From contig JAAYNW010000061.1 of NCBI GenBank assembly GCA_012520655.1, positions 1 through 40,910 on the forward strand: DNA of 40,910 nucleotides, given 5' to 3'. The notes under the pieces were generated by a model. That model was not told the DNA's origin, did not search any database, and was given only the letters and a program-made list of their open reading frames with translations. The position numbers were made by a program, and so were the translations under genes. Each line of letters opens with the position of its first letter. Position 1 is the stretch's first letter. The stretch is from Clostridiales bacterium (lineage in GTDB: Bacteria > Bacillota > Clostridia > Lachnospirales > Lachnospiraceae). Below, piece by piece: positions 6,970 to 14,101 of this stretch.

Positions 6970-7017
6970 AACGAGGAGCTGTCGCATTAGATTTAAATCT
7001 ATGCGCAGCTCCTCGTT
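6970..7017. terminator. Bidirectional terminator between pfp and the AraC gene
   Basis: AACGAGGAGCTG-T-CGCAT (6970-6987) pairs with ATGCGCAGCTCCTCGTT (7001-7017) over 17 bp with one bulged T. The right arm reaches into the stop codon of the convergent AraC-type gene, and an A run precedes the left arm, providing a U-tail for the minus strand. Confidence 0.88.
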
Positions 7018-7918
7018 ATTTCATGTGAGCTTTTCGGTAATCGCGGGGAGAGCAGCTCATGACTTTCTTGAAGGTTTCAGCAAAATAACTGCTCCCATGA
7101 AATCCGATATCAGCCGCAATTTCTGTCATCGATTTATCATCGTTAAGCAATAAAGGAAGGCTTCTTTGTATCCGGTAGTTTAACAAATAAGTGAAAGGCG
7201 TCTGGCGCAGTGTCCGCTTAAATAAATGGCAACATTCGCTTTTGCTTATATGGCAGGAATCGGCAATATCCTGCAGAGAAATATCTTCATTATAATGCGA
7301 CTGGATGAATCTGATAGCCGTTTTTATGCGGTTAATATCGGTTGCGGTGCCCGTCTCTTTCTTATTTAGATGAGGCTTAAGCTCCTGAAAGAGAAGAAAC
7401 CATAGTGCGCAAAGCTTTTCCGCAACGAGGAGTTCATAGCCGTCATCCGCTGAATTCTGTATATCGGCAGCTTCCAAAAGCAGAGAGATTATTTTTCGGC
7501 CAAAATATGATTCCTTGCTTAAATACTTGGAAAAAAGCTCCGGCTCTGTACAGATAGGATTAACATACCTGTTAAAAATGAGGCTGTCTTCATAACCGAA
7601 TATAATAACGGGGTTGAGTACGAAGACGATATAGCTGCAATCCGAATCCGGTTCTGCCGTTCTGGCGGTATGCAAAACATTGGAATTAGTAAAGATCGCA
7701 TTTCCTGCACTGATTTTATATAAGGTATCATTTGCCTGATATTCCATGCATCCTTCCGTCACATAGGTGAATTCCACCTCGGGATGCCAATGAAAGGGAA
7801 AGGAATTCTGCTCATAGTTGGATAAGCGTTCATAACCTACACGAAAAGGAAAGGAATATTTATCCGTGGTATTTCTTTCTTTTAAGTTACTATCAAGAAA
7901 AAGCTTGAATTTCTCCAT
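7016..7918 (-). CDS. AraC family transcriptional regulator with cupin sensor
   Basis: This 300-residue regulator has an N-terminal AraC-type cupin sensor (SFPFHWHPEVEFTYVTEGCM, residues about 39-58, with the expected His and Glu). Its C-terminal pair of helix-turn-helix motifs starts near residue 195: IRFIQSHYNEDISLQDIADS, SKSECCHLFKRTLRQTPFTY and MTEIAADIGFHGSSYFAETF, ending SPRDYRKAHMK. The YFAETFKKVMSCSP signature is canonical. It probably binds a sugar or oligosaccharide and activates the divergently transcribed GH94-like phosphorylase genes. This is an inference from the shared 234-bp intergenic region, which contains a 12-bp perfect palindrome. GGAGGATT lies just upstream of the start. 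The stop codon lies within the shared terminator. Confidence 0.92.
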   Translation of the reverse strand: MEKFKLFLDSNLKERNTTDKYSFPFRVGYERLSNYEQNSFPFHWHPEVEFTYVTEGCMEYQANDTLYKISAGNAIFTNSNVLHTARTAEPDSDCSYIVFVLNPVIIFGYEDSLIFNRYVNPICTEPELFSKYLSKESYFGRKIISLLLEAADIQNSADDGYELLVAEKLCALWFLLFQELKPHLNKKETGTATDINRIKTAIRFIQSHYNEDISLQDIADSCHISKSECCHLFKRTLRQTPFTYLLNYRIQRSLPLLLNDDKSMTEIAADIGFHGSSYFAETFKKVMSCSPRDYRKAHMK

Positions 7919-7993
7919 GGAATCCTCCTGTTTTCATGATGTTTCCGCACAATGGGGAAATTATATGAGAGATATTGGAAAATAAAGCAATAG

Positions 7994-8005
7994 AACAATA
8001 TTGTT
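7994..8005. promoter_or_regulatory. Palindrome AACAATATTGTT in the AraC/GH94 divergent region
   Basis: A 12-bp perfect palindrome lies between the AraC gene and the first GH94-like gene. Its right half overlaps TTGTTA (8001-8006), which with TAATAT (8023-8028) at 16-bp spacing could be the phosphorylase promoter. It may be a regulator site, but the region is very AT-rich, so chance is a real alternative. Confidence 0.35.
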
Positions 8006-13800: not shown

Positions 13801-14062
13801 GGAGCTGCGAATCATGCCGATGTTTCCCCGATATTTAATAGGGCAAGACAAGAAAATTGAAGCGGTATTTCTAGGAAAGATTCCGATAACTTTCCGTCTC
13901 GCGGAGCAGAAAGACTACACACCCGGAAGTTACGAGGTAAGAATCAAAATCCTTCATGAGGATGCTCGAACGGAAGAATATGAAGACGGTATTGTAACAA
14001 GCGATACCGCACTGCTGGTAAGAAGCGGAAAAGTGAAGCGAATAGAGGTATTTATGAGTTAA
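10880..14062 (+). CDS. Large GH94-like phosphorylase, 1,2-beta-oligoglucan phosphorylase type
   Basis: The 1060-residue product is longer than normal GH94 enzymes and starts with [20 protein letters not shown], then [20 protein letters not shown]. This N-terminus and length resemble the 1,2-beta-oligoglucan (sophoro-oligosaccharide) phosphorylases of Listeria and Lachnoclostridium. The barrel includes [31 protein letters not shown], and [20 protein letters not shown], whose Asp639 is the likely general acid; Tyr stands where many relatives have Asn. Such enzymes phosphorolyse short beta-1,2-glucans to alpha-glucose-1-phosphate in the cytoplasm. No signal peptide is present. ATG 10880, with GAGAAGGA 5 nt upstream, is preferred to ATG 10862. 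The closeness to the 898-aa paralogue and a shared terminator indicate one operon. The beta-1,2 specificity is an inference from memory of the family. Confidence 0.8.
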   Translation: [1060 protein letters not shown]

Positions 14063-14066
14063 TGAG

Positions 14067-14101
14067 TAAAAGAGTGATAGACAATATCACTCTTTTATTA
14101 T
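14067..14101 (+). terminator. Terminator of the GH94-like operon
   Basis: TAAAAGAGTGATA (14067-14079) pairs perfectly over 13 bp with TATCACTCTTTTA (14085-14097), with a GACAA loop. It starts 5 nt after the stop codon; the T tail is within the stem end and the following TTATAAAAT. Confidence 0.88.

Follow-up and report, generated by a model that had tools for sequence, protein, structure and literature searches.

Organization of the locus

The window, by which we mean the whole 40,910-nucleotide stretch of DNA that was analysed, carries two phosphorylase genes in tandem, with an AraC-type regulatory gene divergent from them and phosphofructokinase as the upstream neighbour of the locus. The features discussed below are:

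7016-7918, minus strand: AraC-type regulator with a cupin-like sensor domain (Pfam HTH_18, Cupin_2 and AraC_binding)
7994-8005, no strand: perfect palindrome AACAATATTGTT, candidate control region (four-genome intergenic alignment)
8153-10849, plus strand: GH94 laminaribiose phosphorylase (LBP)-like protein, 898 aa (similarity to PDB 6ggy)
10880-14062, plus strand: GH161 phosphorylase-like protein, 1060 aa (similarity to PDB 9qqk)
14065-14099, plus strand: 15-bp hairpin, likely terminator (folding energy after the GH161 gene)
21160-21170, no strand: junction lacking a beta-glucan uptake and sensing block (BLASTN of both flanks to sister genomes G008, G014 and G011)

The sequence AAGGGAAGGAG lies upstream of the LBP-like reading frame. 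Another possible ATG for the GH161 frame, at 10862, would give a protein of 1066 aa; the start at 10880 is preferred because of its better ribosome-binding stretch, GGGAGAGAAGGA, and the 30-bp gap that it leaves to the LBP gene. The hairpin after the pair has a folding energy of -17.8 kcal/mol (z -6.2), equalled by none of 200 shuffles, and is not listed by the consensus terminator scan. That scan gave 4 sites against 6.1 in shuffles and the promoter scan 20 against 17.5 +/- 4.8; with counts so near the shuffled expectation, neither was used. The anatomy given in the initial annotation -- a regulator opposite two genes for proteins of 898 and 1060 aa, a 30-bp gap and one stable hairpin -- was confirmed throughout. 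The alpha-glucan genes that it placed around the pair have been identified downstream as a LacI-type gene, a glycogen/maltodextrin phosphorylase, a MalE-type importer and MalQ. Among the window proteins searched with Pfam, there is no beta-glucan glycosidase and the only importer is the MalE-type one.

The same AraC-LBP-GH161 arrangement is found beside phosphofructokinase in the sister genomes G008, G011 and G014, where AraC orthologues with 80-85% identity occupy the same position. About 80 bp of the AraC-LBP intergenic region are conserved in the four genomes, despite near-saturated synonymous sites in most pairs; the palindrome lies at the start of this stretch, and its inner ACAATATTGT is kept in all four. 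The conserved stretch is likely to be a control region, to which the AraC protein probably binds.

The smaller phosphorylase

Comparison of the 898-aa protein with known structures gave 1045 bits for the LBP of Paenibacillus sp. YM-1 (PsLBP, GH94, PDB 6ggy) and at most 80 bits for the 19 further chains among the matches listed, other GH94 structures included. It is identical to PsLBP at 458 of 888 aligned residues (51.6%), and both the catalytic and the supersandwich domains of GH94 are present, with PF17167 at 96.1 bits and PF06165 at 29.6 bits, each above its cut-off. The RD and WND motifs are common to the two enzymes, though the residue after WND is Ala rather than the Gly of PsLBP, as it also is in 53 of 59 LBP rows. 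Arg370-Asp371, Asp522 of the Trp-Asn-Asp motif and His734 are invariant in those 59 rows, for which, as for the GH161 rows below, more than 400 bits and 85% coverage were required. A catalytic Asp and an RD motif are named for GH94 and GH149 in PMC6771811; by analogy, His734 may bind phosphate.

A midpoint-rooted tree was built from the 73 rows, PsLBP included, that reached 80% coverage and 600 bits, shorter copies being dropped. The window copy and the three sister copies group together (support 100), and PsLBP falls inside the same 30-row set (support 95). Here PsLBP is the characterised anchor, while the choice of LBP over CBP, CDP and ChBP rests on the bit scores. The window genome has two other GH94 genes, with best matches to chitobiose phosphorylase (1171 bits) and cellobiose phosphorylase (1249 bits). 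By sequence, then, the smaller protein belongs with the laminaribiose phosphorylases of GH94, although at 51.6% identity to a characterised LBP its acceptor preference could have shifted. Solabiose phosphorylase, also of GH94, was set aside from its description, which gives it 11.5-29.2% identity with characterised GH94 enzymes (PMC8741936), well below the 51.6% that links the window protein to an LBP.

The larger phosphorylase

Both proteins had been annotated as GH94-like, which fits the smaller one; the larger belongs elsewhere. It matches PDB 9qqk (named "gh161 phosphorylase") over its full length with 1160 bits and GH149 chain 6hq6 with 58 bits, and at E <= 10 there is no match to structure chains beyond GH161 and GH149, hence no GH94 chain. 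No Pfam model was found at E <= 0.001, in a library that includes SOGP_N. The NCBIfam GH149 model gives 104.8 bits against a cut-off of 1150, and GH149 is ruled out by these scores. In the 1066-aa numbering, Arg400-Asp401, Asp645 of Trp-Tyr-Asp and His887 are invariant in 91 rows; the full Trp-Tyr-Asp motif occurs in 85 of them and, of the GH161 phosphorylases 9qqk and 9h8v, is shared by 9qqk. His887 is given its role by analogy. The larger protein is thus assigned by its sequence to GH161, and neither to GH94 nor to 1,2-beta-oligoglucan phosphorylase (SOGP, GH94).

The likeness to SOGP proposed in the initial annotation extends to size (1122 aa, against 1066 aa for the window protein) and is not borne out by any sequence match. 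PDB 5h3z and 5h40-42, named "Uncharacterized protein" there, are the chains that we take to be SOGP. As a control, a search of the same library with the SOGP_N-bearing protein of relative G088 recovers 5h3z (480 bits) and 5h40-42, whereas the larger window protein finds no SOGP chain at E <= 10; by BLASTP against the G088 protein (which is cut by the locus end) its best score is 17.7 bits, no real match. SOGP_N was found in one of the 61 genomes searched, the window genome not being a carrier.

Conservation and precedent of the gene pair

In a sample of 116 relatives, window genome included, GH161 is present in 18, and in 6 of the 16 genomes of the window's genus. In 11 of these 18 genomes LBP is its direct neighbour, with both genes on one strand; in the remaining seven, LBP lies on the same contig within 15 kb (three genomes) or on another contig (one), or no LBP-grade match is found (three). 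Among the best 80 of 184 GH161 relatives in named genomes, a set that overlaps the first, LBP is adjacent and upstream at 43 loci, nearby at 8 and not seen in the surrounding sequence stretch at 29. At 16 of these 29 the available upstream sequence is shorter than 9 kb, so that LBP may have been missed there; at the other 13 it reaches at least 9 kb, which argues that an adjacent LBP gene is often not needed for GH161 to work. The pairing, put forward at the outset as something to look for in Lachnospiraceae, is thus conserved. Three of the 80 loci were annotated: GH30 follows the pair in L107 and L155, and in L104 a binding protein, a histidine kinase and a YesN-like regulator lie beside it. 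BLAST showed permease pairs at many of the best 80 loci.

In two further genomes of the genus (loci L060, G006:C10, and L059, G009:C55) the pair has other neighbours, and its LBP copies cluster with those of other Lachnospiraceae, which suggests that the pair was acquired twice, separately, in the genus. There is also a second tandem type, found in relatives of the window genome (L206-L219), in which an LBP-like GH94 gene adjoins a GH94 gene of about 804 aa in 11 of 14 loci, one of them partial. One such partner matches 8bou, named N,N'-diacetylchitobiose phosphorylase, with 1374 bits, and in the tree the LBP copies of this type cluster together, apart from the window copy.

Kuhaudomlarp et al., 2019 (PMC6484121) described GH94-GH161 tandem loci and proposed sequential phosphorolysis of beta-1,3-gluco-oligosaccharides by the two enzymes. 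PapP, a GH161 phosphorylase of Paenibacillus polymyxa, is reported to phosphorolyse laminaritriose and longer chains, not laminaribiose. It is likened to the window GH161 protein by family, the sequence comparison being that with 9qqk. The window has the same two families side by side, for which the same sequential action would hold; most of the published GH161 loci are described with ABC transporter genes, whereas the window has no beta-glucan transporter and has a one-component AraC regulator. The pair looks like the two-enzyme phosphorolytic module that was suggested, with its pairing conserved, though it is of a kind already described and not uncharacterised.

The missing importer block

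The initial annotation noted that no glycosidase or importer is linked to the pair. This is true of the window but not of the module, since all three sister genomes carry an importer; its absence is a feature of the window genome. Their block lies between an ABC-F gene and the MalE-type gene and contains, in order, a binding protein, two permeases, a second binding-protein-like gene, a histidine kinase and a response regulator (as annotated in G008). A GH30 gene stands in front of it in G008 and G014, while the only GH30 of G011 is elsewhere. The sister binding proteins are orthologous, at 51-53% identity, to a binding protein encoded near the pair in another lineage, and lie about 6 kb (G011), 21 kb (G008) and 44 kb (G014) from the GH161 gene. 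In the window, ABC-F (19500-21215) and the MalE-type gene (21331-22833) are directly neighbouring, and the sequence absent at the junction amounts to 8.4 kb relative to G011, 9.9 kb to G008 and 10.1 kb to G014.

Two other observations concern this region. The second, larger binding-protein-like gene (L193:6182-7828, 549 aa, SBP_bac_1 30 bits) sits between the permeases and the histidine kinase and has a relative in L107 with 58-63% identity. The interval from a LytTR-type response regulator to ABC-F (window 18881-19500, compared with L192, L196 and L197) is also plastic, with extra genes over about 13 kb in G008 and about 29 kb in G014, and none in G011.

The rest of the window genome (97 contigs, 94.6% complete) does not contain an orthologous binding protein, the best match having 31% identity, or any GH30 or GH16. 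The absence of GH16 says little, because G008 also has none and keeps the importer. There are six GH3 matches. Another possible entry route for beta-glucosides is encoded next to the cellobiose phosphorylase gene, where two permease genes occur together with a LacI-type gene and a distant binding-protein-like one.

The missing block is most simply explained as a loss. Non-synonymous distances place G011 as the outgroup, as does the LBP tree (support 89, short of the 95 level), and a single loss in the window lineage is accordingly a simpler history than two gains at the same site. The phosphorylases of the window show no sign of faster evolution: the non-synonymous distances to G011 are 0.130 for the window, 0.138 for G008 and 0.136 for G014 in LBP, and 0.182, 0.187 and 0.182, respectively, in GH161. 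These distances were used in place of dN/dS, which saturation of synonymous sites made impossible to compute in several pairs; for the same reason, a recent loss of the importer would not show in them.

Proposed function

The pair very probably constitutes an intracellular module for beta-1,3-glucan phosphorolysis whose importer block has been lost in this lineage. The GH161 enzyme would use phosphate to remove single glucosyl units from beta-1,3-gluco-oligosaccharides of at least three units, yielding alpha-glucose 1-phosphate and ending at laminaribiose, which the GH94 enzyme would then convert to glucose 1-phosphate and glucose. The glucose 1-phosphate would join a pool also fed by the neighbouring glycogen phosphorylase, and expression of the pair is probably governed by the AraC-type protein, acting through the conserved sequence between the AraC and LBP genes. 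With the dedicated importer block gone, the substrate, if it is still used, would have to enter by way of another beta-glucoside importer. In favour of such a module are the genes for GH30, an importer and two-component proteins that accompany the pair in other lineages; the lack of GH16, GH30 and an orthologous binding protein in the window genome counts against it, as do the LBP-less loci among the best 80.

The same losses, an importer block gone from its syntenic place and no GH30 or orthologous binding protein elsewhere in the assembly, would also be expected of a relic, its substrate gone with the importer and its genes on their way out. This is compatible with the enzyme identities, but the two phosphorylase genes and the regulator gene remain intact and the distances to G011 are no larger for the window than for G008 or G014, so that we regard it as possible but rather doubtful. 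That the gap is an artefact of a fragmented and incomplete assembly is very unlikely, as the sequences on either side, both homologous to those of the sisters, join within a single 40.9-kb contig, and no other contig carries the binding protein.

A different substrate has also to be considered. The initial impression of a SOGP-like enzyme, and the reported acceptance by PapP, in synthesis, of beta-linked disaccharides of other linkages as acceptors, could be taken to mean that the pair acts mainly on beta-1,2 or mixed-linkage oligosaccharides. Opposed to this are the failure of the larger protein to match SOGP chains present in the library or, by BLASTP, the truncated SOGP_N protein, the large gap in score between LBP and the next GH94 structure for the smaller enzyme, and the report that a published GH161 did not phosphorolyse cellotriose; such a specificity is highly improbable. 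The mixed-linkage substrate suggested earlier is weakened, and a beta-1,3-gluco-oligosaccharide is the likely substrate rather than a beta-1,2 or mixed-linkage glucan. It might also be imagined, because the importer and GH30 are missing while both enzymes are intact and the glycogen phosphorylase next door shares the sugar phosphate, that the pair has been re-purposed to make, from glucose 1-phosphate, an internal beta-1,3-oligoglucan serving as a small store or solute; we give this very little credence.

The preferred reading, phosphorolysis of beta-1,3-gluco-oligosaccharides by a pair that has lost its importer, corrects the family assignment and places the pair in the published GH94-GH161 scheme. 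The pair itself is ordinary in kind, a module correctly recognised but misassigned as GH94 plus SOGP-like. That the importer cassette has been lost separately was not found described in the literature searched, and is the only part of the finding without precedent there. It suggests that in one Lachnospiraceae genus the beta-1,3-glucan enzymes and their importer are separate cassettes that can be lost independently; strains with and without the importer would then offer a natural comparison of whether it is the importer that decides who feeds on beta-1,3-glucan.
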